A stretch of DNA of 64,000 bases from Bacteroidota bacterium (GTDB lineage Bacteria > Bacteroidota > Bacteroidia > UKL13-3). Of the stretch, positions 44,094-64,000 are shown piece by piece. The stretch lies in assembly GCA_027488905.1 (NCBI GenBank), contig JAIYAT010000017.1, positions 1-64,000 of the forward strand, written 5' to 3'. Positions within the stretch are counted from its first letter, which is position 1, and each line of letters opens with the position of its first letter. The notes under the pieces were generated by a model. It ran no database searches and was not told the DNA's origin. It worked only from the letters and a program-made list of their open reading frames with translations. The translations under genes and the position numbers were made by a program.

Positions 44094-44756
44094 TTATCGC
44101 AAATCAATTACTTCAACACCCTGATATTTTTTAGGGTCAAACATAAATTGATTATCGTCGAATTTTAAATTTGGAACTTGGTTGGTTACAGTATAGGTAT
44201 GAATGGTTCCTGTTTTGTCAAATACCTGAGAACTTAAAATAGTTTGATTAGTCTTATCTACAACTACCTTAATCTTAAAGAACTTTTTCTTCTTATCTTT
44301 TGGCGTCAATTCTAAGGTTACAATCTCTTTTCCTCCCTCTTTTTTTGTCTCTAAAGTTTTGTATAAAAAACCTTTGCCATACATGGTAAAAATGTCATCA
44401 ATGCGAATGGCTCCTTCTTTAGGATTATAGTTATCTATTTGAACTTCATTTACTTCTTTGCTATAAGTCCAAATAGTTTTATTGTCACAAATGATAACTT
44501 GATTGGCAATGTCTAATTTGAATTTATTGCCCTTTACTAGTAAATTACCTTTTTGTTTTTCCTGGCTTTTTTGTTGTTTATTTTCTACAGTATAAATAAA
44601 ATCCGCCTTGATTGATTTGAAGGCTTTGTAACGTTTACTGATTTTATCCATCAGTTTTTCTGCATCATTTTGCTTAGTGGTTTGAGCCCAAACCGAGGCT
44701 GTAGAAATTAATACTACAATTAATATTATACTTTTTTTCACGCTACAAATATTCAT
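44094..44756 (-). CDS. lolA: Outer-membrane lipoprotein carrier protein LolA-like
   Basis: A 220-residue periplasmic protein with signal peptide (SIILIVVLISTASVWAQ) and the LolA fold: KRYKAFKSIKADFIYTVENK, KGNLLVKGNKFKLDI, VIICDNKTIWTYSKEVNEVQIDN and a C-terminal FMFDPKKYQGVEVIDLR. It carries lipoproteins from the inner to the outer membrane. Bacteroidota LolA proteins often follow ftsK, as here (36-base gap). ATG 44756 begins the signal peptide; a longer frame upstream is unlikely. Confidence 0.87.
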   Translation of the reverse strand: MNICSVKKSIILIVVLISTASVWAQTTKQNDAEKLMDKISKRYKAFKSIKADFIYTVENKQQKSQEKQKGNLLVKGNKFKLDIANQVIICDNKTIWTYSKEVNEVQIDNYNPKEGAIRIDDIFTMYGKGFLYKTLETKKEGGKEIVTLELTPKDKKKKFFKIKVVVDKTNQTILSSQVFDKTGTIHTYTVTNQVPNLKFDDNQFMFDPKKYQGVEVIDLR

Positions 44757-44792
44757 TAATTCAATCAAATAGAAAAACCATGCCAAGATGAG

Positions 44793-47384: not shown

Positions 47385-47527
47385 CTTATTATAGTAACGA
47401 AACTAACATCTTATTTTGATTAGCGATTGCTTTTTTTTGAACCAATTCACAAGTCAAATGAGTTTGTTCTATTTTAAAAAACAAATCCAATGAAATGGAT
47501 TATATTCGGGCAAATTTTCTAACAAAG

Positions 47528-48064
47528 ATGAACGAAGTTGCTGTAGTGTTTTTAGAGATTACAAAGTATCTCATTCCCGCATTAATTGTATTTATTATTA
47601 CCTATTACCAATTTAAAACTTTTTTTGAATCTGAATACCAAAAGAGGGCATTAGATTTAAAATCAGAACAACTTAAAACCATGCAACCTTTGCGTTTGCA
47701 AGCGTATGAAAGATGTATTCTATTAATGGAAAGAATGAACCCAGAAAGTCTTGTGATGAGAACTCATAAACCAGGAATAAGCGCTTCACAACTTAAATTA
47801 GAATTGATTGCTGCTATCAATTCAGAGTTTAATCATAATTTATCTCAACAACTGTATGTTTCGGCGCAAGCTTGGCAAGTAATAAGGGTAGTAAAGGAAG
47901 AAACCATTAATTTAATCAATACTGCCTATTCAGATTTGGGTCCAAGTGCAGTAGGCCTCGATTTAAGCAAAGCAATTTTTGAGCAACTAATTAAAATTGA
48001 AGTCATACCAAGTACCAAAGCACTTAATTTTATAAAGAAGGAATTTGATTTGGTTTTTGGGTAA
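47528..48064 (+). CDS. Conserved membrane-anchored protein (DUF7935-like)
   Basis: A 178-residue protein with one N-terminal helix (FLEITKYLIPALIVFIITYYQF) and a cytoplasmic alpha-helical region containing QPLRLQAYERCILLMERMNPESLVMR, a sequence typical of a conserved Bacteroidota family. Function unknown. It precedes the mutase gene by 12 bases and is conserved in that setting. ATG 47528 is chosen because the helix starts a few residues later and a weak -7 box (TATATTCG) lies at 47501-47508; ATG 47495 would place that box inside the gene. Confidence 0.65.
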   Translation: MNEVAVVFLEITKYLIPALIVFIITYYQFKTFFESEYQKRALDLKSEQLKTMQPLRLQAYERCILLMERMNPESLVMRTHKPGISASQLKLELIAAINSEFNHNLSQQLYVSAQAWQVIRVVKEETINLINTAYSDLGPSAVGLDLSKAIFEQLIKIEVIPSTKALNFIKKEFDLVFG

Positions 48065-48076
48065 ACCTTAAGTAAG

Positions 48077-49627
48077 ATGAGCGAAAAAAAATTCACCACA
48101 GATGCTGGTATAGCAATCAAAGAATTATATACTGGAAAAGCTGACGCCGAATTGCCTGGAGAATTTCCTTATACAAGAGGAGTTCAAAAAGACATGTATC
48201 GCGGAAGACTTTGGACTATGAGGCAATATGCCGGATTTAGCACGGCAGAAGAAAGTAATAAAAGATATAAGTACTTATTAGCCAATGGCACCATGGGTTT
48301 AAGTGTTGCCTTTGATTTGCCTACGCAAATTGGGTATGATTCAGACCATGCGATGAGTGAAGGTGAAGTTGGTAAAGTAGGCGTTGCCATTGATTCAATC
48401 AAAGACATGGAAGTGCTTTTTGATGGGATAGATTTGGAAAAGATAACTACCTCTATGACCATCAATGCAACTGCTTCAACCTTGCTTGCATTTTACATCG
48501 CATTGGCCAAAAAGCAGGGTGCTGACATTAAGAAAATTTCAGGAACCATTCAGAATGATATCTTAAAAGAATATGCAGCTAGAGGAACTTATATTTATCC
48601 GCCAAAGCCAAGCATGCGCATCATCACAGATATTTTTGAGTATTGCAGTACCGAAGTGCCTAAGTGGAATACCATTTCTATCAGCGGATATCATATCAGA
48701 GAAGCAGGTTCTACCGCAGTGCAAGAAATTGCATTTACGCTTGCCAATGCAAAAGCTTATTTGCAAGCCGCAATAGAAAAGGGGATGGATATAAATGTGT
48801 TTGGACAGCGACTTTCATTTTTCTTTAATGCACATAATAACTTCTTTGAAGAGATTGCCAAGTTTAGAGCAGCACGCAGAATGTGGGCACAGATTACAAA
48901 GGAAATGGGCGCAACTAATCCTAAGGCAATGATGCTAAGGTTTCATACCCAAACTGGTGGCGCCACTTTACAAGCGCAACAACCAGAGAATAATATTATG
49001 CGGGTTACCTTGCAAGCCTTAGCAGCTGTGATGGGTGGCACGCAAAGCCTTCATACCAATGGATTTGATGAGGCATTAAGTTTACCAACAGAAGCCGCTG
49101 CAAGAACCGCCCTTAGAACTCAACAAATTATTGCTTATGAAAGTGGAGTTGTGGATACAGTTGACCCAATGGGAGGTTCTTATTTTGTTGAGGAACTTAC
49201 CGATACCATAGAAAAATTAGCATGGGAATACATGCATAAAATTGAAGCCATGGGCGGCGCAGTAAGTTCAATTGAGCAAGGATATATGCAAAAAGAAATT
49301 GCAGATGCGGCTTACCGTTACCAAAAGGACATTGAACACGGTGATAAAATTATTGTAGGCGTAAACAAGTTTTCGCTTGAAAAAGAAGTAATGCCTCCGT
49401 TGTTTAAGGTTAACGATAGCATACGCTTGGATCAAACCGAAAAATTAAAACAACTGCGAAGCGAAAGGGATGCAGGTTTAGTAGCTGATTCTTTTGTAGC
49501 CTTAGAAAGTGCAGCAAAAGAGGGTAGGAATTTAATGCCACATATCATTGAGGCGGTAGAAAGAAATCTTACGCTAGGAGAAATTGCCGATACATTTAGA
49601 AATGTTTTTGGCGAATACAGAGCATAA
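48077..49627 (+). CDS. Methylmalonyl-CoA mutase-family large subunit (barrel only)
   Basis: A 516-residue protein covering the acyl-CoA-binding TIM barrel of B12-dependent mutases: [35 protein letters not shown]-type region, [28 protein letters not shown] and [14 protein letters not shown]. It stops near the end of the barrel ([10 protein letters not shown]), so the cobalamin-binding domain is absent and must come from another gene, as in isobutyryl-CoA mutase or two-part methylmalonyl-CoA mutases. The substrate cannot be fixed by sequence reading. It has tight spacing to the genes on both sides. Confidence 0.88.
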
Positions 49628-49628
49628 T

Positions 49629-50363
49629 ATGAAAAAGTTATTTCTAATACTTGTTGTTGCGTTTGCAGCTTGCCACTCTCAACAGCAGGTGGCAAGTGTT
49701 CAATCTGAATTTTATCGGATTCACAGGGACTCCATTAAGCCAGATGAACGTATTTTAAAAACCATTGCTCCTTATAAAAACAAATTGGATAGTTTAATGA
49801 ATGTTGAACTCATTCTTGCAGAAGGAGATTTTTCTAAGTCCCAACCAGAAGGAAGTCTTGGAAACATGGTTTGTGATGTTTTGATGCAATATGCCAAAAG
49901 TAAAAACTTGCAAGCAGATTTATGTTTGATGAATAATGGTGGCCTTAGAATTCCTGTTATCTATAAAGGACAAGTTTCTGTAAGGACAGTTTATGAGTTA
50001 ATGCCTTTTGAAAATCAATTAGTATTGGTGAAAATTAAAGGGAGCAAGTTCAAAGAATTAATGCAAATGCTTGCATCCTCTGGAGGTGCGCCTGTTGCGG
50101 GAATTAATTTAGTAATTCAAGATAATGCAATTCAATCACTTTTGGTTCAAGGCCAACCTTTTGACGAGCAAAAAGAGTATTGGGTTTTAACAAGTGATTA
50201 TCTTGCCAATGGCGGAGATAAGTATGATGCGTTAAAAAATCCAATTGAACGTATTGACTTAAATTTATTGCTTAGAGATGTTCTCATTGAAACACTCTAT
50301 AAAATGGATACGGATGGTGCACATTTAATACCTGTAATTGATGGCAGAATTAGAAAAAACTAG
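49629..50363 (+). CDS. 5'-nucleotidase C-terminal domain lipoprotein
   Basis: A 244-residue protein with a lipobox (VVAFAACHSQ) and one 5'-nucleotidase C-terminal domain: EGSLGNMVCDVLMQYA, LMNNGGLRIPVIYKGQVSVRTVYELMPFENQLV and LTSDYLANGGDKYDAL. This domain binds the nucleoside part of the substrate. The metallophosphatase half is encoded by the next gene, which overlaps by 23 bases, so the two probably act as one enzyme. It is placed on the membrane by its lipid anchor. ATG 49629 is one base after the mutase stop. Confidence 0.85.
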   Translation: MKKLFLILVVAFAACHSQQQVASVQSEFYRIHRDSIKPDERILKTIAPYKNKLDSLMNVELILAEGDFSKSQPEGSLGNMVCDVLMQYAKSKNLQADLCLMNNGGLRIPVIYKGQVSVRTVYELMPFENQLVLVKIKGSKFKELMQMLASSGGAPVAGINLVIQDNAIQSLLVQGQPFDEQKEYWVLTSDYLANGGDKYDALKNPIERIDLNLLLRDVLIETLYKMDTDGAHLIPVIDGRIRKN

Positions 50364-51294
50364 AAGACGAGAGTTTATCCAAAAAACCATTTACCTTGTG
50401 GGTTTTGGAGCCTTAGCCAATACTCCCTTAAAATTATTGGCTAAAGAAAGTCCAAGAGAATCATTGTTAGTGCTGCACACCAATGATTGGCATAGCAGAA
50501 TTGAGCCATTTCCAGAAATAGATAAACAAAATGGAGGAATGGGTGGCGCAGCCTACCGCGCAGCGCTAATAAAATCTATACGCGACAAGGAAGGGGAGGT
50601 TTTGCTTTTAGATTCAGGTGATATCTTTCAAGGTACTCCTTATTTTAATTTTTATGGAGGTGAGCTAGAATATAAACTAATGTCGGCCATGGGTTATGAT
50701 TGCGTTACTTTAGGTAACCACGACCTAGATAATGGAATTGATGGAATTGTGAAACAATTGCCCCATGCCCAATTTAAATTTGTAAATGCCAATTACTCCT
50801 TTAAAAATACAGCTTTGGAAGGATTTGTTAAGCCCTATTCAATTTTTAAAAAGAAAGGTCTCAAAATTGGCGTTTTTGGACTGGGAATTGAGTTGCAAGG
50901 GTTAGTGCCTGAGAAACTTTTTGGAAACATTGTATATAATGACCCAATTGAAGCTGCAAATAAAACGGCTGAGCATTTAAAGTTAGTTGAGCATTGCGAT
51001 GTGATTATTTGTTTGTCACATTTGGGGTACAAATACAATAATAATAAAGTGAGTGATTTAGTGCTAGCAGAGAAAACAAAACACATTGATATAATACTTG
51101 GAGGACATACACATACTTTTTTAAATGAGCCCGCTCTTGCTAAGAATCTTATCAACAAAAATGTAATGGTTAATCAAGTAGGCTGGGCTGGGTTACGTTT
51201 AGGTGCCATTCGCATAACTTTTGAGCCATTTATTAACACAAATATAGCTGTTCGTCTTAAGGGTGAACAGTCAATAAGCATTGAAGAAATTTGA
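50341..51294 (+). CDS. 5'-nucleotidase metallophosphatase domain (Tat-exported)
   Basis: A 317-residue calcineurin-like phosphatase. The N-terminus, TRRREFIQKTIYLVGFGALA, looks like a twin-arginine export signal. Metal-binding motifs are LHTNDWHSRIEP (about 46), LLLDSGDIFQGTP (about 83), VTLGNHDLDNG (about 118) and LSHLGY plus LGGHTHTF (about 250), as in UshA-type enzymes. The C-terminal nucleotidase domain is in the preceding gene, so order is reversed relative to the single-chain protein. Start ATG 50341 follows from the Tat signal. Confidence 0.87.
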   Translation: MAELEKTRRREFIQKTIYLVGFGALANTPLKLLAKESPRESLLVLHTNDWHSRIEPFPEIDKQNGGMGGAAYRAALIKSIRDKEGEVLLLDSGDIFQGTPYFNFYGGELEYKLMSAMGYDCVTLGNHDLDNGIDGIVKQLPHAQFKFVNANYSFKNTALEGFVKPYSIFKKKGLKIGVFGLGIELQGLVPEKLFGNIVYNDPIEAANKTAEHLKLVEHCDVIICLSHLGYKYNNNKVSDLVLAEKTKHIDIILGGHTHTFLNEPALAKNLINKNVMVNQVGWAGLRLGAIRITFEPFINTNIAVRLKGEQSISIEEI

Positions 51295-51442
51295 TTTGTT
51301 AATAAATTGTTTCGTCTGTTGAGTGCTGATTTTATTGGTTGTTTCGGCTATTATGAAGAAATTCTTATGAAAATCGTTACATGGTTTTTAGCAATCAAAA
51401 AAATTTTTTTTCAAACAAAAAAAATTTCTGTTAGAAATCAGT

Positions 51443-51460
51443 GGGTAAAATGTTTTACCC
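51443..51460. promoter_or_regulatory. Palindrome upstream of dnaA
   Basis: GGGTAAAATGTTTTACCC, an 18-base inverted repeat (8-base arms, TG centre), 87 bases before the dnaA ATG. An AT-rich stretch with A-runs and T-runs precedes it (51396-51425). It could be an operator of dnaA or part of a replication-control site; no DnaA box (TTATCCACA type) is visible nearby. Confidence 0.4.
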
Positions 51461-51534
51461 CCAGTTTTTCAATTTACGATTGTTGAAAATGTTTTGTAGT
51501 GTGAACTTTTTTAGTCATTTTCACGAACGCAATT

Positions 51535-51539
51535 GGAGG
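51535..51539 (+). promoter_or_regulatory. Shine-Dalgarno site of dnaA
   Basis: GGAGG, 7 bases before ATG 51547. Such sites are rare in this phylum and hardly seen elsewhere in the window, so it stands out and fixes the dnaA start. Confidence 0.6.
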
Positions 51540-51546
51540 CAAAGAA

Positions 51547-52986
51547 ATGACTGAAAAAACATGTGAATCTGTTTGGAATAGTATCCTAAAATTAATTCAA
51601 GACAACGTACCCGCACAAAGCTTTAAAACTTGGTTCGAACCTATTAGGCCAATTAAATTAGATAATAAAGTGCTTACCATTCAGGTACCTAGCCAGTTTT
51701 TTTATGAGTGGTTGGAAGAGCATTATGTTAGTTTGCTAAAGAAAACGCTTAAACAAGAATTAGGGGTAGGCGCCAGGCTTGAATACAATATCATAGTTGA
51801 GAATGGTACAAGTACTTCAAATCCGTATATTGTTAATATTCCTGGTAGCACTAGTTCTAGGTCAGAATTACAGCAAACTGCAACCCATGGCATCAATCTA
51901 AATCCAAGTATTAGAAATCCATTTATTATCCCTGGGATTAAAAAGGTTAATATTGATAGTAACCTTAACCCAAATTGCACTTTCGAAAATTTTATTGAAG
52001 GCGATTGCAATAGATTGGCAAGAAGCGCAGGTTTAGCTGTTGCTAATAAACCTGGTGGCACTTCTTTTAATCCACTAATGATTTTTAGCGAAACAGGGTT
52101 AGGTAAAACCCATTTGGTGCACGCAATCGGTAATATGATAAAGCAAAGCAGCAAGAATAAGGTTGTTTTGTACGTACCTGTTGAGAAATTCATTAACCAA
52201 TTTGTAGACGCCATTAGAAATAACTCTAACCAGGATTTCATCAACTACTACCAGCAAATTGATGTGTTAATTGTTGATGATGTTCAGTTTTTAGAAAATA
52301 AACAAAAAACGCAGGAAATTTTCTTTACCATTTTTAATCATTTACATCAATTAGGCAAGCAAATCATCCTTACAAGTGACAGAGCGCCTAAGGACCTAAA
52401 AGGCATGGATGAGCGTCTTTTAAGTAGGTTTAAATGGGGACTTTCTGCAGATTTGCAAACTCCTGATTTCGAAACACGCATGGCCATTCTTGAGCATATG
52501 ATGTACAATGATGGAATTACCTTAAATAAAGAAGTTGTTGAATATGTTTCTCACAACATCAATAGTAATGTAAGAGAATTGCAAGGAGCTTTGGTTAGTT
52601 TGTTGGCGCAGGCAAGCCTAAACAGAAAAGAAGTTAATCTAGAACTGGCTAAACAAATTCTCAAAAACTTTGTGAAAAATAATACCAGAGAGATTTCAAT
52701 TGAGTATATACAAAAATTGGTTTGCGATTATTTTACAATTCCAGTAGAGCAGGTAAAGTCTAAAACACGTAAGCGCGAAATTGTTCAAGCCCGTCAAATT
52801 TCTATGTACTATGCCAAGGACCTTACCAAGTCGAGTTTAAAAACCATTGGAATGCATTTTGGTGGGAGAGACCATTCAACTGTAATTCATGCCTGTCAAA
52901 CGGTAAACGACCTTATGGAAACAGACAAAAAGTTTAAGGCGGATATTGATGAAATTGCAAAGCGCATTAAAATGAATTTAGTGTAA
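51547..52986 (+). CDS. dnaA: Chromosomal replication initiator DnaA
   Basis: A 479-residue initiator. Domain I (1-85) includes WFEPIRPIKLDNKVLTIQVPS; domain II is a linker of about 55 residues. Domain III is AAA+: Walker A ETGLGKTHLVHAIGN (about 180), Walker B LIVDDVQFLEN (about 240), then SDRAPKDLKGMDERLLSRF and REQLQGAL-like sensor region. Domain IV binds DNA with GMHFGGRDHSTVIHA (about 440), the family signature. It binds oriC and opens DNA. Length is normal. It has no replication partner (dnaN, gyrB) beside it, as is common in Bacteroidota. Confidence 0.96.
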   Translation: MTEKTCESVWNSILKLIQDNVPAQSFKTWFEPIRPIKLDNKVLTIQVPSQFFYEWLEEHYVSLLKKTLKQELGVGARLEYNIIVENGTSTSNPYIVNIPGSTSSRSELQQTATHGINLNPSIRNPFIIPGIKKVNIDSNLNPNCTFENFIEGDCNRLARSAGLAVANKPGGTSFNPLMIFSETGLGKTHLVHAIGNMIKQSSKNKVVLYVPVEKFINQFVDAIRNNSNQDFINYYQQIDVLIVDDVQFLENKQKTQEIFFTIFNHLHQLGKQIILTSDRAPKDLKGMDERLLSRFKWGLSADLQTPDFETRMAILEHMMYNDGITLNKEVVEYVSHNINSNVRELQGALVSLLAQASLNRKEVNLELAKQILKNFVKNNTREISIEYIQKLVCDYFTIPVEQVKSKTRKREIVQARQISMYYAKDLTKSSLKTIGMHFGGRDHSTVIHACQTVNDLMETDKKFKADIDEIAKRIKMNLV

Positions 52987-53025
52987 GAATTTGCTATTAT
53001 TGGGTAAATCAATAAATTTATACCC

Positions 53026-54018
53026 ATGAAGCCAAACCAACTTTTGTTAATGCTAAGCCTTGTATTTTTAGCATTAACTAACTTAAATGCTCAAAGGAAT
53101 TACTTTGTATTTGATACTACCAATTATTGGGTAAGTTCAAACCTTAGTTTACATGCCTCCAAATACAGGCTGTATGCAACTAAAAGCAATACCACCCAGT
53201 TGCTCAAAGATTTTAAAGGTAAGGATACAAATTACTATATTAGGGATGTTGACTTTTTTGATGAAAACCATTTTTTGGTTTTAATTGGAAGAAAAACCAT
53301 TGGTTTTCCAACAGAACTTTTCGTCACCAAAGATGCAGGCCAAACTTGGGCGCTTGATACCTCTTTTTTTACAGTTTCAGAGCATAAAAGTCTTAATCAG
53401 GTGCAAGTGTTAGGTGGAGATACACTATTGCTTTTTGATGGCTATTACCAAAGTGATGTCTTGCGTTCGTTTGATAAAGGCAAAACATGGCAAAAATGGA
53501 TTAGTTCTATCATTGCCCATTACTTTCAGGTTCATTATTGCCAAAAAACATCGCGCTATTATATGATTGGTTTGCCTGGAGATGCTTTTACTAGTGTTAG
53601 CTTTGAGATTCCAGATTCTATTTGGAAAACGATTAATTTAAATTGGTATAGTGGCTGTCATAATGCGAAACCTTGGTGTCACCGTGTTTTATATGGTGCT
53701 AATATTTGGCAAACAGACTTTATCAATGCTCACAAAATGTATATCGATAGTATTTGTGAGCAGATTAGTACCTCTGTGCCAGAGAAAGAACTAGGTTCAA
53801 ACCGAAAAATTTTAGTTTACCCAAACCCTTCAAAAGGCAATGTTACAATACCATCTTGGAAAAATGAAACCATTGAATGCTATTCCATTGATGGTGTGTT
53901 TTTAGGTTCAAACCAAACTGATGAAAATGGAAATTTGACAATGAAAAATTTGGCATCAGGGATTTACATTCTCAATTGTCATGGCAAAAGTCTTAAAATT
54001 GTAATAGAGGCAAATTAA
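53026..54018 (+). CDS. T9SS-sorted exported protein with BNR-like repeats
   Basis: A 330-residue protein with signal peptide (LLLMLSLVFLALTNLNAQ). Two Asp-box (BNR) motifs are visible, KDAGQTWALD (about 102) and FDKGKTWQKW (about 148), typical of beta-propeller blades. The C-terminal T9SS type A domain starts ILVYPNPSKGNV (about 263). The protein is short for a full propeller, so it may be a truncated or minimal form. An imperfect inverted repeat (GGGTA near 53002, TACCC near 53021) immediately precedes the ATG. Confidence 0.75.
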   Translation: MKPNQLLLMLSLVFLALTNLNAQRNYFVFDTTNYWVSSNLSLHASKYRLYATKSNTTQLLKDFKGKDTNYYIRDVDFFDENHFLVLIGRKTIGFPTELFVTKDAGQTWALDTSFFTVSEHKSLNQVQVLGGDTLLLFDGYYQSDVLRSFDKGKTWQKWISSIIAHYFQVHYCQKTSRYYMIGLPGDAFTSVSFEIPDSIWKTINLNWYSGCHNAKPWCHRVLYGANIWQTDFINAHKMYIDSICEQISTSVPEKELGSNRKILVYPNPSKGNVTIPSWKNETIECYSIDGVFLGSNQTDENGNLTMKNLASGIYILNCHGKSLKIVIEAN

Positions 54019-54058
54019 ATATCATTTCAAGATTCTCTTCTAAACATTTATATTATTT

Positions 54059-54955
54059 ATGAAAGTAACACTTTATTTAATGACCCAAAAAGGTTACGAA
54101 GTATTAAAGGCATTAATTCAAAATAACTTTATTGAGTTAGTATCTGAGGTTGTTATTGGAAGAGATAAACAAATTCAAAAAGATTATGCAGATGATTTAA
54201 TTTTTATTTGTAAATCAAATAGTATCAAATTTTATGAACGTAATGAAGATTTTTTTTCAGAGTCTGACTATGAAATTGCAATTTCTTGGCGTTGGCTAAT
54301 TTCGCCAAAGTCTCATTCGAAATTGATAGTATTGCATGATTCTATTCTGCCTAAATATAGAGGCTTTGCACCGTTAGTAAATATGTTGATTAATAAAGAA
54401 ACGGAAATTGGTGTTTCGGCAATCTTTGCCTCAGAAGAGTATGATACTGGAGATATAATTTCTCAATCTTCAACCCCAATAGAATATCCTATAACTATTG
54501 CAAAGGCAATTGATTTGATTACTAAAAACTATGTAGAGGTTATAATAAGTATTTTCACTTGTTTTGTTAATGGGTTTGAAATTTCCTCTATTAAACAAAA
54601 TGAGGAATTAGCTACTTATAGTTTATGGCGTGATGAAAATGATTATTTAATTGATTGGAAAAAAGATGCAAATGAAATCCTTAGACTTATAAATGCGTTA
54701 TCGTTTCCTTATAAAGGAGCATCGACATTTATTAATGGAAAGCAAAAGGTTAGAGTAATTGAGGCAGAGATAGAACCTGATGTTAAAATAGAAAATCGTT
54801 CAGAAGGAAAAGTGATTTTTATAAAAAATCAATTCCCAATAGTAGTTTGTGGGTCGGGTTTAATTCGACTCAAAAAGGCATTTGATGAGGAAACTGGGAC
54901 TGATATTTTACCTCTAAAAAACTTTAGAATTAAATTTTCTTCCCAACTTTGTTAA
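54059..54955 (+). CDS. Formyltransferase-family protein, likely sugar N-formyltransferase
   Basis: A 298-residue protein with the N-10-formyl-tetrahydrofolate formyltransferase fold (compare Fmt). Key region: VLHDSILPKYRGFAPLVNM (about residue 99), then EEYDTGDIISQS (about 130). The catalytic His and Asp are present, but the usual Asn two residues before His is Val here. A C-terminal OB-like part (RLINALSFPYKGASTFINGKQ) follows. It probably formylates an amino-sugar for a surface glycan, given the downstream aminotransferase and acetyltransferase. Too short for the usual Fmt and not next to def. Confidence 0.75.
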   Translation: MKVTLYLMTQKGYEVLKALIQNNFIELVSEVVIGRDKQIQKDYADDLIFICKSNSIKFYERNEDFFSESDYEIAISWRWLISPKSHSKLIVLHDSILPKYRGFAPLVNMLINKETEIGVSAIFASEEYDTGDIISQSSTPIEYPITIAKAIDLITKNYVEVIISIFTCFVNGFEISSIKQNEELATYSLWRDENDYLIDWKKDANEILRLINALSFPYKGASTFINGKQKVRVIEAEIEPDVKIENRSEGKVIFIKNQFPIVVCGSGLIRLKKAFDEETGTDILPLKNFRIKFSSQLC

Positions 54956-55288
54956 TTCATTAAAGTTAAAGTTGCTTCTGGAGCTTTATTTTTAAAGCTA
55001 ATCTTTACCTAATCTGGGTACTAAAAATTGTTTGAAGTAAGTGAAAAACGCTTGTATATTTAATTAAAAGCCATATTTTTTGGTATACTCTTGGCTAGAG
55101 TTGATTATAGAAATATCCTTTTTCATAAAAAAAATTTGCTTATTTTCGAATAAATTTATTTAGGCCCTTGTAAGTTCAAACTAATTGAGCAGACGATTAG
55201 TTTGTGATATTTGGTTTTCAATTTTAGGCCAATATGTTAAGATACTACCAATTGAAAGAACTGAAAATCGAAATAGAATGTTAATTTA
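54956..55288. other. Intergenic region with one hairpin
   Basis: A 333-base AT-rich gap. The only structure seen is a perfect 9-bp inverted repeat, CAAACTAAT and ATTAGTTTG, with a 10-base loop (55177-55204), not followed by a T-run. No ORF worth reporting, tRNA or exact promoter. Confidence 0.6.
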
Positions 55289-56437
55289 ATGAGAATTGTA
55301 TATTTAACTATAGCAAAATTTAATAAGCGTGATTATTTCAGATTTGGAGTTGATTATTTTACTTCGAAAGGCGTGCAAGTTGAAGTTTGGAATATTTCAA
55401 AATTGATTTTTCAAGAGTACCATGAAGACTATATACCTCCAGATTATTTAAAATCTGATAATTATATAGAGTTTGAAAGTTACATGGAACTCAATGCAAA
55501 AATGTTAATATTAACAAAATCTGACTTTTTAATTGATTTCAACGGACAATATCATAATTCAGAACTAATTAATTTGAATGGAATTACCAATGTCATAAAA
55601 GTTGTAATTAATAATAAGCCAAGTAAGCACGATAATTTATATGTAGCTTACTTTGTAAAGATTTTAATAGCCTTTCTTAATTTTAAAGTATTTAGGTGGG
55701 TAAGTTTCTTTAGAAATTCAACGGCTAAAAAATATGATGGCGTAATTTTAGGTGGTTTTCTTTCATATAGTTTATTGAAGATAGCTGAGTTGAAATTGCC
55801 AATTCATACTATTAAAACGCATGCGCTCGATTATGATGTGTATTTAACGCAAAAAAATAGTAATACCAGAGTTTTAGACGATGAATATTGTGTTTTTCTT
55901 GATGAAGCAGTCGTGAACCATCCAGATTTAAAGAGTTTTGGAGTATTGGGTTCTATGAAACTTTGCGATACTCAAACTTATTACGAGGAGCTAAATGCTT
56001 TTATGGACTTTGTAGAAGATATATTTAAGATAAAGGTGGTAATAAGTGCTCATCCAAGAGTTAGCTATTTAAATGAGAATGTTTTTAAGCAAAGAGAGGT
56101 ATTTTATGGTCATTCGAATGAGTTAATACGGAATGCTAAATTTGTATTTGGGCATACTTCTAATTCTATGCATTATGCTGTTTTGTATCAAAAATGCATT
56201 TTGTTTCTAGACTCAAATAGCTATGATTCGAAATTTAGAAATATAATTAAGAAAAAGTCAATGATTCTAAATGCTCAGTGTTTCGATATTTCTGAGTCTA
56301 TTCATCAAATTGAGATTAGACATGATGAAAAAAGCTATCATAGATTCATAGAAAATTATATCAAAGAAAAATCATCTAATAATATTAATTCATGGGAAAT
56401 TTTATATAATGACTTTAAAAAAATTAAAAAATCATAA
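55289..56437 (+). CDS. Uncharacterised protein of the surface-glycan cluster
   Basis: A 382-residue protein I do not recognise. It has a Rossmann-like N-terminal region (MRIVYLTIAKFN, then VEVWNISKLIF) and a second half with KVVISAHPRVSYLNENVFK (about 250) and NAKFVFGHTSNSMHYAVLY (about 288). An HP motif followed by a Gly-His-Thr-Ser loop is reminiscent of GT-B sugar or phosphate-polyol transferases, but this is only a resemblance. No membrane helix or signal. Position among glycosyltransferases supports a role in polysaccharide assembly. Base composition is more AT-rich than the window average. Confidence 0.55.
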   Translation: MRIVYLTIAKFNKRDYFRFGVDYFTSKGVQVEVWNISKLIFQEYHEDYIPPDYLKSDNYIEFESYMELNAKMLILTKSDFLIDFNGQYHNSELINLNGITNVIKVVINNKPSKHDNLYVAYFVKILIAFLNFKVFRWVSFFRNSTAKKYDGVILGGFLSYSLLKIAELKLPIHTIKTHALDYDVYLTQKNSNTRVLDDEYCVFLDEAVVNHPDLKSFGVLGSMKLCDTQTYYEELNAFMDFVEDIFKIKVVISAHPRVSYLNENVFKQREVFYGHSNELIRNAKFVFGHTSNSMHYAVLYQKCILFLDSNSYDSKFRNIIKKKSMILNAQCFDISESIHQIEIRHDEKSYHRFIENYIKEKSSNNINSWEILYNDFKKIKKS

Positions 56438-56453
56438 ACTTAAATAGTTCCTA

Positions 56454-57992
56454 TCATGGTTTGATTTTAAAAATTTCTAATATTTTGCTATTCCTTAATG
56501 AAATTGAATAAATACTTTTATTCTTGAATTCTATGTAATCATCTGGGTGGTATCTATAATTGGTAACAAAATAATCTGCACTGTCAAAGGTACTTACACA
56601 TTGAAATTTCTGCTTTTTTTCATTTGGCAATAATGATAAATTGAAAAGGCCATTTTTAGGTTTAAAATGGACCTTTATTGTGTCTTCTTTTGCATAATCA
56701 TATAGATAATCTAAAGCTTGATTAAATGATGTTCCCCAATAATCTTGTTCAAAATTTTTTCTTATATATTCTGGTTTGGTACTTACCAATTGATTGAAGT
56801 AAATATGATGGTTTGGGAAAGTTTTTACAGCTAAAAAAACTTCATATGAAATAATTAAAGAAAAGGTAATTATCATGTAATTTAATCTTACTTTTTTTTC
56901 TATTAATTCTAACATATAACCGGCTAGCAGCACAAATCCTGGATATATAAAAAATAAATGCCGCCAGCTATCATACAATACTGATTTAAAGACAATTACT
57001 GCAAGTATTGGAGAGATAAAGTAAATTATCAAAACTATTTTAATTCGACCACTTGCAGAAAAATAATACAACTTTGGATTTTTTATAAAACCATAAACGG
57101 AAAGGAAAATATATCCTAATCCTAAGATTAAATAGGCTAATGGAGTTGTTAAAAAGAAATAAATAAAAAAATAATCCCAACCAATATTAATGCTTTTTCT
57201 TTGAATTCCTAAAACTAAAACTTCCCCTTTATATCGAACGAATTTTGACATATTTATTATAGCTGTAGAAAAGTTACTCATTGTGTTTTCCCATAAATAT
57301 GGCCAAGAAATAAGAACTGTTGCTGTAATGCTAAATATCAAAAGACCTAAACCTGTTAAAGTGGGTTTAAGCTCCTTAAAAAGACTAGGTTTTAAGAATA
57401 AAAAGACCAAAAAAGTTGGAAAGAAAATTAATCCAATTACTCTAATACTAATTACTAATCCAAATGCAACTCCAAATTTTAACAAGTCAATATTACGTTT
57501 GCTAACCTCAGCTTTCAAAAGGTAAAAGAGGCTAATTACAAGCATAGACATAAAGACAATATCCTTTGAATTATAAAAGGAATGCCCATAAATAACAGGG
57601 TTAAATAGATAAATTATTAAGGACATTATGGCAATTCTATAATTTGAAAAGATTTGTAAACCAATTCTATAAAAATAAATTGCACTAAATAGAAATAGAA
57701 AATGTGTTACTAGGTGGCGCATCAAGTATAATTCTCTTAGGTCATTAATTCTTAAGAGTTTTTCGAGGCCAATAAGTAGAATTTCAAAAATTGCACCATA
57801 ATCTCGGTCATGAAATTCTAATAATTGCTTATCTACCTTGAAGATATAATTAAAATTTACTAACCCAACTCTCCTTGAATAATATTCATCCCATGAAATA
57901 CCGTAATGTTGAAAAGTGAGAATACCAATGACAGCCAAGATTAGAACAATTATGTAGCCAAGGTTTTTTTGTAGAAGTATATTCAAAGTCAA
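56454..57992 (-). CDS. GT-C membrane glycosyltransferase (ArnT/PMT-like)
   Basis: A 512-residue polytopic protein with about 11 membrane helices. After the first helix comes GISWDEYYSRRVGLVNFNY, the acidic loop motif (W-D-E) expected of GT39/GT83-type transferases that use polyprenyl-phosphate sugars, followed by HDRDYGAIFE. A soluble domain forms the C-terminal 110 residues. It probably transfers a sugar on the outer face of the inner membrane. The frame has no ATG near the start; TTG 57992 is used. The adjacent GT2 gene would make the lipid-linked donor. Confidence 0.72.
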   Translation of the reverse strand: MTLNILLQKNLGYIIVLILAVIGILTFQHYGISWDEYYSRRVGLVNFNYIFKVDKQLLEFHDRDYGAIFEILLIGLEKLLRINDLRELYLMRHLVTHFLFLFSAIYFYRIGLQIFSNYRIAIMSLIIYLFNPVIYGHSFYNSKDIVFMSMLVISLFYLLKAEVSKRNIDLLKFGVAFGLVISIRVIGLIFFPTFLVFLFLKPSLFKELKPTLTGLGLLIFSITATVLISWPYLWENTMSNFSTAIINMSKFVRYKGEVLVLGIQRKSINIGWDYFFIYFFLTTPLAYLILGLGYIFLSVYGFIKNPKLYYFSASGRIKIVLIIYFISPILAVIVFKSVLYDSWRHLFFIYPGFVLLAGYMLELIEKKVRLNYMIITFSLIISYEVFLAVKTFPNHHIYFNQLVSTKPEYIRKNFEQDYWGTSFNQALDYLYDYAKEDTIKVHFKPKNGLFNLSLLPNEKKQKFQCVSTFDSADYFVTNYRYHPDDYIEFKNKSIYSISLRNSKILEIFKIKP

Positions 57993-58029
57993 TAGTATAA
58001 AATTGTTGTTTTTAAAAGTTAAATCTCAA

Positions 58030-58953
58030 TTAACGTATTATATTACAATTGTCTGTATAGCTTTTTTGAGTTAGAATTTTCTTGAAAGAAACAAGTAATA
58101 ATCCTAAAATTATTGTACAAATTAATATAAGTGTAATGATTATAAGCCCAAGCATCGAGGAACTGGCCCAACCCAAAATGGCGGTTTGGGCTTTATATTT
58201 TGAATAAATGATATAACTACCAAAAGTTAAATCTAATATTAAAAAAAGCACAGTCATCCTCATTAAAAAGTATAATACTTCTTCCGAAAATTCTATAAGT
58301 GAATACAAGCCATGCAAAATCAAACTCTTTTGGTTCATTTTTGAATTGCCATGAACTCTCTTTCTTCGGTCAAATTTAATTTTTATTATTGAACATTTTT
58401 GCTTGTATAGAAAACTGGGATAATGAATAAAATTTTGGTTAGCTATTGATTTTAATAATTTAACACTAATCATTGAGTAATTTCCAAATGATATTTTTTT
58501 ACCAGTTATTATATTGAAAAGTTGTCTATATATAAAATAACCTAACTTGAATCTCATGTTTTCATATCTCTTACCCCTTTCTACAAAAACAATATCATAT
58601 TTTTCAATTTCAATTAACTTTAGTATTGCATTAGGATCATCTTCACCATCTCCATCCATTATTATGATACCATTTTCCAAGTTGAAATTACTCTCAGCAT
58701 ATGCAAGACCTTGCCTTATAGCTTCTTGATGCCCAACATTGCTTTTTAATGAAATAGCTTTTAGAATTAAATTAAATGAATTAAATTCAAATGACTTTAT
58801 TAACTCTGCAGAATTGTCTAGTGAGCAATCGTCAACTATTAAAATAGTGAAATAAAATTCTGTTTTACATAGTATTAACTCAATTTCTGAAAGAAATGAT
58901 TTAAGTCCTGATGCTTCATTATAACAAGGTATAATAATTAAATAAGATTTCAT
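58030..58953 (-). CDS. Family 2 glycosyltransferase (GtrB/DPM1-like)
   Basis: A 307-residue GT2 enzyme with a GT-A domain (1-215): LIIIPCYNEASGLKSFLSE, IVDDCSLDNSAELI, and the catalytic IIMDGDGEDDPNAIL (about 95). Two C-terminal membrane helices follow (about 240-300). This layout matches enzymes that attach a sugar to undecaprenyl or dolichyl phosphate. Together with the GT-C protein 37 bases downstream it forms a plausible donor-and-transferase pair. Confidence 0.85.
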   Translation of the reverse strand: MKSYLIIIPCYNEASGLKSFLSEIELILCKTEFYFTILIVDDCSLDNSAELIKSFEFNSFNLILKAISLKSNVGHQEAIRQGLAYAESNFNLENGIIIMDGDGEDDPNAILKLIEIEKYDIVFVERGKRYENMRFKLGYFIYRQLFNIITGKKISFGNYSMISVKLLKSIANQNFIHYPSFLYKQKCSIIKIKFDRRKRVHGNSKMNQKSLILHGLYSLIEFSEEVLYFLMRMTVLFLILDLTFGSYIIYSKYKAQTAILGWASSSMLGLIIITLILICTIILGLLLVSFKKILTQKSYTDNCNIIR

Positions 58954-59060
58954 TTTGAGCGAAATTGAAAATTGAAATTTATAAATTTCATTATTTTATT
59001 TTCTTTTATTTAGACAATTGGTTATAAATAGATCACTTCACTTCTTGATTCTCCAATACA

Positions 59061-59822
59061 TTATTTGTTGCAGATCAAATAATTAGATAAGCCTGGCAGT
59101 TTGATGCCAATTTTGTTTAAAATGAATGTAAATTTAAAATCAGTTATTAAGCAAGTTTTTACAAATTTAGTTACGTTTTTGCCCCTATCCCAATCAACCA
59201 AACCTGAAGAATTTTTTGCACTTGGTTTAATTTTCTCATAAATCACCTGAAGCAATCTTGGTAATATTAAGCTAAAAAAGAAATAACCAACTTGTTCTGT
59301 TTTTAACCCTGCACCCTTAACTAAGTTAGATAGGCTTTTGTTTGTATATCTTCTAAAATGCCCAAGGAAAACATCGTGGCTGCAAAATAGATTTTGATAG
59401 GCAGGCACAGTAATCACGAATTTAGTTCCAGTACCAATAAACTTTTTATAAACTAAGGAACTTAAAAAAGTTTTGTCATCATTAATATGCTCAAGTACAT
59501 CCATTAATAAAACGCAATCAACATCCAAATCAGTTGGAATTAAATCTAGGTTTTTAAATAATTCAATATTGTTGTTTTTAGATTTATAAAAACTTATTAA
59601 CTCATCTGTAAAGGCTGTATCAACTGCTAAGTACCTTGCTTTAGGGAATAATTTATTTAAAGAGTCTATTACAAATGTATCTCCACAACCTACATCCAAA
59701 ATAGTTGGATTAGGTTTCCCCTTGAATACATCTTTTAAAAAAAAGGTGAGAATCTCAAAACGGGCAAACTCCCATGGATGCCTATTTTCATTTTTCTTAT
59801 TTTTTACTTCTATTAAATCCAT
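59061..59822 (-). CDS. Class I SAM-dependent methyltransferase
   Basis: A 253-residue methyltransferase with motif I TILDVGCGDTFVIDSL (about residue 40), an acidic residue in YLAVDTAF, and motif post I DVDCVLLMDVLEHINDD (about 103), the DVLEH pattern of UbiE/COQ5-like enzymes. The C-terminal region is hydrophobic in part (YFFFSLILPRLLQVI). It may methylate a glycan or lipid carrier; the substrate is unknown. The gene is the first of the minus-strand trio of glycan genes. Confidence 0.83.
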   Translation of the reverse strand: MDLIEVKNKKNENRHPWEFARFEILTFFLKDVFKGKPNPTILDVGCGDTFVIDSLNKLFPKARYLAVDTAFTDELISFYKSKNNNIELFKNLDLIPTDLDVDCVLLMDVLEHINDDKTFLSSLVYKKFIGTGTKFVITVPAYQNLFCSHDVFLGHFRRYTNKSLSNLVKGAGLKTEQVGYFFFSLILPRLLQVIYEKIKPSAKNSSGLVDWDRGKNVTKFVKTCLITDFKFTFILNKIGIKLPGLSNYLICNK

Positions 59823-59956
59823 TTATTATCTATTTAGCTGTTAATTTAAGGCAGGTGTTTATTGAACCTATACTTGAGTGTTAAAAAAATTTAAATCTAG
59901 TTTTATTTTCGAGAATATAAATAATTATATATTTAAAAAATTTGATAATAACTTTA

Positions 59957-60103
59957 TTAATTTTTAAAATTAGTTTTATAAATAAGGTCTGATTTTAATA
60001 TGATTTTAGTGAAAAGTGCCCTTATTATAGTTAAAAAGATAAATAAAGATACGACAATATCCGAAACTATTAAGAAAGCTAAGTAAATCAAAATTGCCAT
60101 CAT
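59957..60103 (-). CDS. Possible small membrane protein
   Basis: A 48-codon open frame starting with two ATGs (60103, 60100). The product is almost all hydrophobic (LIYLAFLIVSDIVVSLFIFL) with a basic tail ending KTNFKN. In AT-rich DNA such frames arise by chance, so this is uncertain. It lies 19 bases after another small frame in the same direction, in a gap of 538 bases without other genes. Confidence 0.25.
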   Translation of the reverse strand: MMAILIYLAFLIVSDIVVSLFIFLTIIRALFTKIILKSDLIYKTNFKN

Positions 60104-60122
60104 AGAATCTATTCTCTATCAG

Positions 60123-60266
60123 CTAAAATTGATCTTTTATTCCCTGTTCACTCATGTTAAAGAGTGTCCAAACATCCCCCAATACACCCTTATTTATTAA
60201 ATAAAATAGATTCATTACCAAGGTAAATGAAACCATAAAAATGGGTTTATTCTGGTTAATATTCAT
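60123..60266 (-). CDS. Possible small membrane protein
   Basis: A 47-codon frame from ATG 60266 with a central hydrophobic stretch (IFMVSFTLVMNLFYLI) and a short polar C-terminal part (NMSEQGIKDQF). No family recognised. The rest of the gap (59823-59956 and 60267-60360) shows no other structure apart from AT-rich sequence. Confidence 0.25.
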   Translation of the reverse strand: MNINQNKPIFMVSFTLVMNLFYLINKGVLGDVWTLFNMSEQGIKDQF

Positions 60267-60360
60267 TTTAAATCAAAAAAATCAATTCAAAAATAGAATA
60301 TATTAAATAATTCACTAATTTATTCTAATAATTAGATTCAATTTATTCTAATAACTATTT

Positions 60361-61632
60361 CTAATTATTACTATTCTTTGATTCAGGTTTTACTCTAAAA
60401 ATCAACCTCAAAGAACTATCGCTTGAGAAATAGGCCCAACTCCAATGGATTAAAATAATTAGCTTATTTCTAACACTTAAAATAAGCATAAGATGTAAAA
60501 ACATCCAAACCAGCCAAGCGATAAATCCTTTGAAACGCATAAAAGGTAAATCTACCACTGCTTTGTTTTTTCCTATGGTGGCCATTGCTCCTAAATCTAA
60601 ATACTCATATTCTTTTGACGCTTTAGTTTGTAAGGCTCTCTTAAAGTTTTTTGCCAAATTCTTAGCTTGATTAATAGCAACGTTTGCCACCTGAGGATGA
60701 CCTTTAGGATATAACGGAGTTTCCATATAAGCAATATCACCAATGGCATAGATATCGTTGTGATTATAAATAGCATTAAACCTGTCTACTTTATATCTTG
60801 AATTAGGTAAATAGGCTTCTGCAACTAAACCTGGCAAGATATTGCCACTTACGCCAGCAGCCCAAATTAAAGTAGACGTTTCCAGAGTTTTGCCATTGCT
60901 AAGCAGGGCAACTTTTCCATCATAATCTTTTACAAAAGTTTCTGTAATAATTTCAACGCCCATTTGATTTAGGTATTTTTCAGAAGAAACTTTGGCCAAA
61001 TCACTCATATTGTTTAAAGTATGAGCACTTCCTTCAACCAAAATCACCTTCATTTTTTTTGCATCAATTAGAGGGTATTCTTCTGGTAAAACACTTTTAA
61101 TAATTTCACTAAAGGCTCCTGCTAGTTCAACTCCTGTTGGCCCTCCGCCCACAATTACGATGTTATTTCGCGGATTACTTTTTTCTTGAGAACTTGATGA
61201 AAGTGCTTCGAACAATTCTAAAAGATGATTTCTAACCTGAATGGCTTCTGTGGTCGATTTTAAAGTAAAGGCATTTTGTTGAATGTTAGCGTTGTTGAAA
61301 AAATTGGTTTTGCAGCCAGTGGCAATCACCAATTTATCGTAGGCTATTTCTTCTATGTTGGTTTGAACCAACTTAGCAGTGGGATTTATGCTGAGGACTT
61401 CGCACATTTTCACTGAAATATGCTTTTTGTTTCTAAAAATATTCCTGATTGGAAATGAAATAGATGAAGGCTCTAATTGCGCAGCGGCAACCTGATAAAA
61501 CAAAGGTTGAAATTGGTGGTGATTTAAACGATCAATTAACACAATATCAAAAAGTTTAGCATCTAAACTTTTTGCAAGAGAAAGGCCTGCAAATCCTGCC
61601 CCAAGAATTACAATGGTTTGTTTTGTTTGCAT
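60361..61632 (-). CDS. ndh: Type II NADH dehydrogenase (NDH-2-like)
   Basis: A 423-residue flavoprotein. The FAD-binding start is TIVILGAGFAGLSLAKSLD (about residue 8), followed by HHQFQPLFYQVAAAQLEPSSI typical of NDH-2, and the NADH-binding IVIVGGGPTGVELAGAF (about 152). The second FAD motif is NDIYAIGDIAYM (about 281). A hydrophobic region near the C-terminus (FKGFIAWLVWMFLHLMLI) anchors it to the inner membrane. It feeds electrons to quinone without pumping protons. ATG 61632 is chosen: an earlier start would overlap the DUF2007 gene. Confidence 0.88.
   Translation of the reverse strand: MQTKQTIVILGAGFAGLSLAKSLDAKLFDIVLIDRLNHHQFQPLFYQVAAAQLEPSSISFPIRNIFRNKKHISVKMCEVLSINPTAKLVQTNIEEIAYDKLVIATGCKTNFFNNANIQQNAFTLKSTTEAIQVRNHLLELFEALSSSSQEKSNPRNNIVIVGGGPTGVELAGAFSEIIKSVLPEEYPLIDAKKMKVILVEGSAHTLNNMSDLAKVSSEKYLNQMGVEIITETFVKDYDGKVALLSNGKTLETSTLIWAAGVSGNILPGLVAEAYLPNSRYKVDRFNAIYNHNDIYAIGDIAYMETPLYPKGHPQVANVAINQAKNLAKNFKRALQTKASKEYEYLDLGAMATIGKNKAVVDLPFMRFKGFIAWLVWMFLHLMLILSVRNKLIILIHWSWAYFSSDSSLRLIFRVKPESKNSNN
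61360..61371 (+). repeat. Iterated 12-mer, copy 9
   Basis: Exact copy in ndh, read on the coding strand as Leu-Val-Gln-Thr. It is the only copy in the last 10 kb, and ndh is a housekeeping gene inside the polysaccharide-rich region. Confidence 0.8.
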
Positions 61633-61636
61633 AATT

Positions 61637-61864
61637 TTAGGAGTTATTCTCGCTTTCGTAATCCTTAAGCACTTCAGTTGCTTTTTCAATGTCTTCTTCT
61701 AGCACTTGAAGTTTAATGCCTCCAATTGCATTAGAATACAATGGATTCATTAGGATTGTAAACTCATCCTTCACAAAAACAGGGATTCCAGAATCCTCAA
61801 GCATGCTTTTTAATAAAGTAATTTCTAAAGGATATTGAAAAGTGCGAAGGGTGACAAGGTGCAT
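61637..61864 (-). CDS. DUF2007 domain protein
   Basis: A 75-residue protein comprising one DUF2007 domain: FQYPLEITLLKSMLEDSGIPVFVKDE, then a Gly-Gly-Ile-Lys-Leu-Gln-Val strand and an acidic helix EEDIEKATEVL. The family may bind proteins or small signals, but the function is unproven. It lies 4 bases before ndh, likely in one transcript. Confidence 0.82.
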   Translation of the reverse strand: MHLVTLRTFQYPLEITLLKSMLEDSGIPVFVKDEFTILMNPLYSNAIGGIKLQVLEEDIEKATEVLKDYESENNS

Positions 61865-62188
61865 ATTCTAGTTTAGTTTTTTTAAACCTTATACAATGAA
61901 AAGCAATTAATTGATGAACTTGTTTTTATTAGGGGATAATTTGAGGATTAATAGGCACAATTTGCACAATTTTGTTCAAATCGAATTCTTAAAAACTACC
62001 AAGCTCCGCTTCCCCATTCTTTATTCAAAAAAAATTTCAATAATAATTCTGTTTAGATTTTTTTGACTTAGTTTTTTAGGTTAAACATAATAGAAATAGC
62101 ATAAACAATAGATTAAAAATTCCAAATTAAAAAAATTGAACTTGAATACAGCGAGTAAAAATTCACTTATGGGATTTAACAAAAATGA
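61865..62188. other. Intergenic region, no feature seen
   Basis: A 324-base AT-rich gap. I find no tRNA, terminator with a strong stem, exact promoter or credible small gene in it. Confidence 0.5.
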
Positions 62189-62815
62189 TTACCTTTTATG
62201 GATGATTTTCCCCGGAACTCCATAGACTAAAGAGTTATCAGGGATATTCATTCTAACTACAGAGCCAGCACCAATTTGACAGTTTGACCCTACTTTTACA
62301 TCTGGAAAAATAACAGCGTGACTTCCTACTGATGTAAAATCACCAATTTGAGATCCCCCTAATAGACAAGCATGTGGTGAAACCTCAGAAAATTCACCCA
62401 CAATCGCATCATGATGAATACTACTATGGCAATTAATTAAGCTTGAGTTGCCAATTATAGATGAATTTCCAATATAGGCAAATGCCATAATATTAACGCC
62501 TTCTCCAATTACTGCATCTCTTCGGCCTATGTCTGCTTTTGAAGAAATCACAGAAGTTAAAACCCCTCCAGATTCAATCATTTTTTTTTGAATCATGCAT
62601 CTATTATTAGGATTACCTAATCCTAATACAAATTGATTATTAGTATTTACAAAGTGTTCAACTAGCTTGTCAACAGTTCTGATAACATTATAAGCCTTAA
62701 AAAAATTCGGTATCTCTAGGCACCAATCATCAAAAAAGCTTATTTGAACAATCCCGTTTTTTTCTAAGACATCCAATACCTCCTTGGCATGTCTATTTGC
62801 ACCTGCAATAATCAT
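62189..62815 (-). CDS. NeuD/PglD-like sugar O/N-acetyltransferase
   Basis: A 208-residue protein with an N-terminal nucleotide-sugar-binding domain (MIIAGANRHAKEVLDVLEKNGI, where the usual GAGGHAKE is changed to GANRHAKE) and a C-terminal left-handed beta-helix with hexapeptide repeats (GEGVNIMAFAYIGNSSIIGN and onward, about 105-200). A His in SSIHHDAIVGEF (about 135) is the expected catalytic residue. It uses acetyl-CoA to acetylate an amino-sugar. It follows the aminotransferase by 8 bases, so both act on the same sugar nucleotide. Confidence 0.82.
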   Translation of the reverse strand: MIIAGANRHAKEVLDVLEKNGIVQISFFDDWCLEIPNFFKAYNVIRTVDKLVEHFVNTNNQFVLGLGNPNNRCMIQKKMIESGGVLTSVISSKADIGRRDAVIGEGVNIMAFAYIGNSSIIGNSSLINCHSSIHHDAIVGEFSEVSPHACLLGGSQIGDFTSVGSHAVIFPDVKVGSNCQIGAGSVVRMNIPDNSLVYGVPGKIIHKR

Positions 62816-62823
62816 TATCCGTT

Positions 62824-63906
62824 CTAATTATTTTGTACTCTTAACATAATACTAGCAATTAAATCAATTTCTTCCTTAGATAATGAATGAAAAAGGGGCA
62901 GGCATAACACCCTTTTGCTAATTGATTCTGTGATTGGTAATACAAAATTATCCTCGATATAAGGCATTTTAGATAAATTTGGATAAAAGTATCTTCTTGG
63001 ATAAATCCAATTGTCATTTAACACCTGTATCATTTTTAAAGTAATTTCCTCGGATTCAAGTACAACTGGGTAATAAGAATAATTATATTGAGAGTCATGT
63101 ATTAACGTTGGTTTTAAACACTTTAAGTTAACTAAAGCATCATTATAATACATTGAGAGCTTCCTTCTATTAATTAGAATTTCATCAATATATTTTAAAT
63201 TAACTAAACCCATAGCTGCATGAAATTCAGAGTTTTTACCATTTATGCCAATGTCACTAAATTTTTCATAGCCATCATGTCCAAAATTTCTTAAAAAGGA
63301 CATTTTTTTTAGTAGGTCGGCATTTTTTGTAAAAACTGCTCCACCTTCAACTGTATGAAACAATTTAGTTGCATGGAAGCTAGTCGTAGAAATATCTCCA
63401 AACTCGAAAATAGACTTCCCTTTATATGTTGTTCCAAAACAGTGAGCAGCATCATATATTACTTTTAAATGATGTTTTTTTTTTTTTTTTTCTATTGCTT
63501 CAACATCACAAGGATTGCCATAAACATGCGTAGCAAGAATTGCTGAAGTCTTTTCAGTAATAGCAAATTCAATTTTTAAAGGATCTATATTTAAAGAGTT
63601 CGCATCAATATCAACGTAAACTGGTTTGCATCCCTCCCATATGATACTGTTTGTTGTAGCAACGTAGGAAAATGGGGTTGTAATAATTTCATCAGTTAAA
63701 TTCAAAGCCTTTAAAGCAATTTGAAGTGCAATAGTGCCATTTGATAAAAACAGAATATGTGGAATTCTTAAGTATTCCTTTAATCTTAGCTCAAGTTCGT
63801 TAACCAATGGCCCATTATTGGTAAGCCATTGCCTTTCCCAAATACTTGTAATATATGTTAAGTATTCTGATTCAGGGGGTAGGAAAGGCTTGGTTACTGG
63901 TATCAT
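62824..63906 (-). CDS. DegT/DnrJ/EryC1 PLP sugar aminotransferase
   Basis: A 360-residue PLP enzyme that makes an amino-sugar from a keto-sugar nucleotide. Features: MIPVTKPFLPPESEYL, TTPFSYVATTNSIIWEG (about 83), VYDAAHCFGT-like segment (about 150, Asp binding PLP), and the catalytic Lys in SFHATKLFHTVEGGA (about 184). A run of 17 A on the coding strand gives Lys140-Lys144; a change in its length would shift the frame before the active-site Lys. The gene heads a two-gene unit with the acetyltransferase. Confidence 0.88.
   Translation of the reverse strand: MIPVTKPFLPPESEYLTYITSIWERQWLTNNGPLVNELELRLKEYLRIPHILFLSNGTIALQIALKALNLTDEIITTPFSYVATTNSIIWEGCKPVYVDIDANSLNIDPLKIEFAITEKTSAILATHVYGNPCDVEAIEKKKKKHHLKVIYDAAHCFGTTYKGKSIFEFGDISTTSFHATKLFHTVEGGAVFTKNADLLKKMSFLRNFGHDGYEKFSDIGINGKNSEFHAAMGLVNLKYIDEILINRRKLSMYYNDALVNLKCLKPTLIHDSQYNYSYYPVVLESEEITLKMIQVLNDNWIYPRRYFYPNLSKMPYIEDNFVLPITESISKRVLCLPLFHSLSKEEIDLIASIMLRVQNN
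63475..63491 (-). repeat. 17-base homopolymer within DegT gene
   Basis: T17 on the plus strand, A17 on the coding strand, inside the aminotransferase reading frame. It is by far the longest homopolymer in the window; the next longest in a gene is a run of 9 in the neighbouring acetyltransferase gene (about 62581-62589). Confidence 0.85.
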
Positions 63907-64000
63907 CTTTGTTTTTTGATATAATTTTCTTAAAATCTCGAGTGAATTCTTTTAATTTTAGAAGTTTTTTATGCTTTATACTTTTTAATTAATTCAAATG

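Follow-up and report, generated by a model that had tools for sequence, protein, structure and literature searches.

A variable glycan cassette interrupts the distribution of a repeated DNA motif in an uncultured Bacteroidota genus

Positions 1 to 64,000 of contig JAIYAT010000017.1 (hereafter the window), from the Bacteroidota bacterium assembly GCA_027488905.1 of the UKL13-3 lineage, carry many copies of a short DNA motif with the 8-base core TTGGTTCA, and a 6,375-bp block of glycan genes at 54,010–60,384 contains no strong site of this motif. The block is absent from the nearest congener, and it is probably a variable glycan cassette, swapped or lost as a unit, that is motif-free through foreign origin or short residence. 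The window belongs to a genome of 3.55 Mb (G000), and most motif statistics come from 2.56 Mb of it, from which a weight matrix was built with a score of 12 as the site threshold, and the 8-mer expectation in the window was taken from an order-3 Markov model. For comparison we used 18 congeners, 6 other genera of the family and 16 genera of other families. Two congeners are referred to throughout: G009, the nearest at 94–95% DNA identity, and G005, a more distant one at 77–80% identity.

Searching G009 with window positions 44,001–64,000 gave a match that ends at 54,009 and resumes over 60,385–61,852, with 24 bp between the two flank matches on a single G009 contig (flank identity 94% on the left and 86% on the right). 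This empty site makes 54,010–60,384 a presence/absence block, and its left edge agrees with an initial annotation of the window that had placed the break close to 54 kb. The block is located between the ends of two convergent genes, one for a type IX secretion system (T9SS) sorting tail protein (53,026–54,018, forward strand; Pfam Por_Secre_tail) that is common to G009 up to 54,009, and ndh, for a type II NADH dehydrogenase (60,361–61,689, reverse strand; Pfam NDH2_C and Pyr_redox_2), in which the match resumes. It is AT-rich, as had been noted, with a G+C content of 0.27 over 54–60.5 kb against 0.354 over the 2.56 Mb of G000, and four of its five genes rank in the bottom 7% genome-wide by third-codon-position G+C. 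Both presence/absence between close relatives and atypical composition, two marks of a genomic island, are therefore seen here.

The five genes begin with that of a formyltransferase-like protein (54,059–54,955, forward strand; Formyl_trans_N and Formyl_trans_C by Pfam and NCBIfam), which probably acts on an amino sugar and whose third-position G+C is at the 0.5th percentile of the genome. It is followed by a protein at 55,289–56,437 (forward strand) that matches no Pfam or NCBIfam family, and by three genes on the reverse strand: a PMT_2 membrane glycosyltransferase (56,454–57,992; Pfam), a GT2 glycosyltransferase (58,030–58,953; Pfam and NCBIfam) and an S-adenosylmethionine (SAM)-dependent methyltransferase (59,061–59,822; Pfam). 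The block has no identified polymerase or flippase, and no plasmid relatives of it were found.

The window has 39 copies of the 8-mer TTGGTTCA/TGAACCAA, compared with an expectation of approximately 7, and nine copies of the 12-mer TTGGTTCAAACC, compared with an expectation of 0.06. All but two of the 39 8-mer copies are before 50,151, at approximately 1 per 1.36 kb, in keeping with the density first reported. The accompanying statement that the core is then missing until 61,360 was wrong by one copy, at 58,330–58,337 on the forward strand inside the supposed gap; this overlooked core is without the right half of the motif and looks like a chance match, scoring 1.5 against the threshold of 12. 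The original observation hence stands for density, AT-richness and the break near 54 kb, but not for the complete absence of the core. Near-variants (AGGTTCAAACC) are indeed found in the T9SS-tail gene, at 53,793 and 53,904, and the final two motif sites ahead of the gap are in the same gene (0-based matrix starts 53,787 and 53,898). The first full motif past the block, an exact TTGGTTCAAACC, is on the reverse strand at 61,360–61,371 within ndh, as described earlier. We rejected the 8-mer gap as evidence on its own, given that its length is at chance level: 18 gaps of 8,181 bp or longer are observed in the 2.56 Mb against 19.5 expected under a Poisson model. For the full motif scored by matrix, the gap from 53,898 to 61,353 ranks 13th by length among 2,213 gaps, and gaps of 7,455 bp or longer number 13 against 3.2 expected.

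The TTGGTTCA/TTGGTTCAAACC word is strongly over-represented throughout G000. In the 3.55-Mb genome the 12-mer has 527 copies, 260 of them forward and 267 reverse, compared with 6 copies of its reversed control. All 18 congeners are enriched, with 24 to 985 copies each. Copy numbers are 1 to 6 in the other genera of the family and 0 to 2 in the genera of other families, with no excess over controls in either group, and the motif is limited to the genus among the genomes compared. In congeners with low copy numbers, k-mer enrichment of loci for motif dialects was dominated by common gene words. The matrix consensus is close to TTTGGTTCAAACC[AG]AAA with a near-invariant T.GG.TCAA, and can be approximated as TTTGGTTCAAACCGAAA, at approximately 1 site per 1.1 kb. 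Sites scoring above 12 number 2,249 in the 2.56 Mb (1 per 1,139 bp), approximately 10 times the reversed-sequence control. By a crude gene caller, 88% of them fall in coding sequence, which makes up 91% of the genome. The sites are found on both strands and in all three reading frames, and are evenly distributed along genes. Among the strongest sites examined, five of nine are identical over 12 bases in G005, compared with approximately 8% of random words, which indicates, from few sites, that strong sites are retained in relatives. Taken together, these properties point to a DNA-level signal and not a protein motif, although the counts behind the G005 retention are small.

Motif depletion extends to most of the other tested DNA that is not shared with G009. 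Across eight 20-kb regions of G000, selected with some bias, shared DNA has 103 sites in 109 kb (0.94 per kb) and unshared DNA 11 in 51 kb (0.22 per kb), an approximately fourfold lower density. Taking only the region of the block and two unselected regions, the counts are 45 sites in 49.6 kb of shared DNA against 1 in 10.4 kb of unshared DNA (p = 0.0017). The longest motif gap (on contig C4) starts at 31,571, and sharing with G009 ends 0.3 kb away, at 31,852.

The same locus in G005 holds a different glycan cassette, with a 57% identical relative of the 55,289–56,437 protein after dnaA (by tblastn) and a close relative of the formyltransferase before ndh. This cassette is also motif-poor, given that the first 11.7 kb of the G005 locus (L053) have 11 sites and the next 9.8 kb a single weak one. 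In the window dnaA (51,547–52,986, forward strand) is the conserved anchor of the locus; in other congeners an 82–97% identical dnaA is followed by different genes, none of them block genes in the downstream DNA examined. The formyltransferase is missing from 17 of the 18 congeners, which have only relatives of approximately 30% identity, and the PMT_2 gene is absent from both G009 and G005, with only distant relatives in six congeners. Because the more distant G005 has a related cassette in this position, the cassette could be ancestral and have been deleted by G009, the motif being excluded for another reason such as relaxed or diversifying selection. In Neisseria, likewise, core genes that were lost recently have no uptake sequences, and regions that diversify have fewer than expected (PMC2397512). 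However, the formyltransferase is 89% identical to that of G005 in DNA and 90% in protein against 79% for the flanking DNA, an excess that suggests exchange. Because of this excess, and because the PMT gene is missing from G005, swapping fits better than vertical descent, and we consider an ancestral cassette rather improbable. In the swapping model, the cassette between the T9SS-tail gene (after dnaA) and ndh would differ wholesale between species of the genus, having been exchanged or lost as a unit, probably through homologous recombination in the conserved flanks. Its DNA may come from a pool that does not maintain the motif, or may have been resident too briefly to gain it, while resident shared DNA would keep the motif as a DNA-level signal.

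Several points weigh against this reading of the block. The eight regions were not chosen at random, four having been selected because of their long gaps and one because it was both AT-rich and motif-rich, and all the genomes seem to be metagenome assemblies. Gain in G000 and loss in G009 are not polarised by the comparison, and G009 may have lost the block. By Pfam, none of the five block genes is a mobility gene (integrase or transposase), which is consistent with, but not proof of, exchange by homologous recombination. An island of near-average G+C (L131, on contig C15) that is mostly missing from G009 nevertheless contains 8 sites in 18 kb, and the second-longest motif gap (C27:315,751–330,603, 14.9 kb) is the ribosomal-protein/rpoA cluster, whose searched part is 97% identical in G009. 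Motif density also falls with G+C, from 5.9 sites per 6.5 kb at a G+C of 0.35–0.36 to 2.7 at 0.28–0.30. This last trend would be expected if composition alone were responsible, given that a word of 50% G+C would seldom arise in a very AT-rich block whatever the history of the block. The chance-level 8-mer gap fits such an explanation, as does a block G+C of 0.27 that is below every shared region tested. However, the low-G+C windows are partly unshared DNA themselves, and one shared region with a G+C of 0.306 (C32:320–340k) has 24 sites in 19.7 kb (1.2 per kb). AT-richness alone is thus insufficient to explain the gap, and an origin in composition only is unlikely.

Given the motif-free ribosomal-protein cluster, motif absence does not single out foreign DNA. 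The long gap in this conserved cluster could also mean that the motif is selected against by coding or expression constraint, in the glycan block as in the ribosomal genes. Glycosyltransferase genes, however, are as a rule neither highly expressed nor strongly conserved, and the third-position G+C of the block genes is unusual toward AT, which makes such functional exclusion very improbable. Recent transfer of the glycan genes, as the initial annotation proposed, is supported as far as the block is strain-variable and unshared DNA is motif-poor, whereas we infer the direction and recency of the change. Its second proposal, motif density as a marker of foreign DNA, agrees with the densities in shared and unshared DNA but is weakened by the ribosomal cluster, a gap in a conserved housekeeping region of the kind that it had named as counter-evidence. 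Motif absence is a useful but non-specific marker of foreign DNA: conserved, constrained genes can also be without the word, and both constraint and composition need to be controlled for.

The closest precedents are HIP1 and the neisserial DNA uptake sequence (DUS). In Synechococcus elongatus PCC 7942, scarcity of HIP1 together with odd composition marked acquired genes, with ribosomal protein genes as an exception (PMC3025956). Word-poor islands of odd composition and the ribosomal exception are both seen in G000. In contrast to HIP1, which is a perfect palindrome (GCGATCGC), the G000 motif has an asymmetric consensus and its host belongs to the Bacteroidota, and the G000 island is demonstrated by comparison with a close relative in which the site is empty. 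The DUS is absent from recently acquired genes (PMC2397512) and has been used for finding integrated elements (PMC7371117). Like the DUS, the G000 motif is a short word, present in hundreds to thousands of copies, equal on both strands, clade-limited, enriched in core DNA and scarce in acquired DNA as far as the biased choice of regions can tell. It differs in having a longer and more degenerate consensus and in the opposite orientation of neighbouring copies within 2.5 kb. The motif therefore resembles an uptake-type signal in its distribution, and a role in uptake is putative. Regular expressions run over 72% of the genome matched no pilin and no PilB/PilT-like ATPase, but they also missed DprA and ComEC, and the scan is hence insensitive. 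A Chi-type recombination site was rejected, given that the motif has no strand bias (the G-rich strand carries 375 sites and the opposite strand 361) and no correlation with GC skew. The cassette itself is like variable surface-polysaccharide loci in being an AT-rich glycosyltransferase cassette that differs as a unit between conserved genes; what differs is its position, with ndh on one side and a T9SS-tail gene linked to dnaA on the other. The principle of word scarcity as a marker is already known, whereas to the extent of the literature searched this genus, this motif and this locus are new, and no open-access paper describing such a motif in Bacteroidota was found. The HIP1 and DUS principle is here extended to another phylum, in an uncultured Bacteroidota genus, by means of an empty-site comparison.

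Neighbouring copies of the motif prefer opposite orientations. Among the 280 copies with a full right half, pairs within 2.5 kb are opposite in 52 cases and the same in 10, with a ratio of approximately 1:1 beyond that distance. At matrix scores of at least 16, pairs within 2 kb are opposite in 970 cases and the same in 624, an excess that recurs when each half of the data is taken alone. No comparable excess is seen for any of 137 control words, and we know of no mechanism that predicts such a preference. The motif could tentatively be viewed as an uptake or recombination signal, similar to the DUS, of an entire genus of lake Bacteroidota, with an opposite-orientation rule; variable glycan cassettes and other acquired DNA without the motif would then not yet have entered the exchange system; we regard this as possible but doubtful. 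For a motif with such an orientation rule we found no report in the literature searched, and its cause is testable.

Beyond ndh, a second glycan stretch missing from G009 occupies 61,853–64,000 of the window and the next 2,783 bp, to approximately 66,783 on the contig (reverse strand; G+C 0.28–0.31). It includes a NeuD/PglD-type acetyltransferase and a DegT aminotransferase and has one weak motif site, and ndh thus sits between two variable blocks.

Long motif gaps elsewhere in G000 cover arrays of small genes on one strand. An 11-kb gap at L216:13,000–20,000 (C23:53–65 kb) covers an array with spaced GCCTAAC/GTTAGGC repeats similar to integron attC cores, and two more long gaps cover arrays of small one-strand genes at L153:1–14,000 (C37), with dispersed imperfect repeats between the genes, and at L143:11,700–20,000 (C27). 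The island at L131:1–20,000 contains pieces up to 96% identical to G005, compared with 77–79% near the window, and is a candidate recently moved element. A 22-bp repeat among the enriched words, AGTAGCTTCSCACC, was suspected to be an integron attC site but was rejected as such, being a dispersed tandem repeat. This family, with a unit containing GTAGCTTCSCAC, is found in approximately 10 dispersed places, some of them at contig ends: C6:177,973, C21:6,868, C27:20,324 and 287,863, C32:123,798 and 541,942, C15:17,776, and the ends of C6, C23 and C34.

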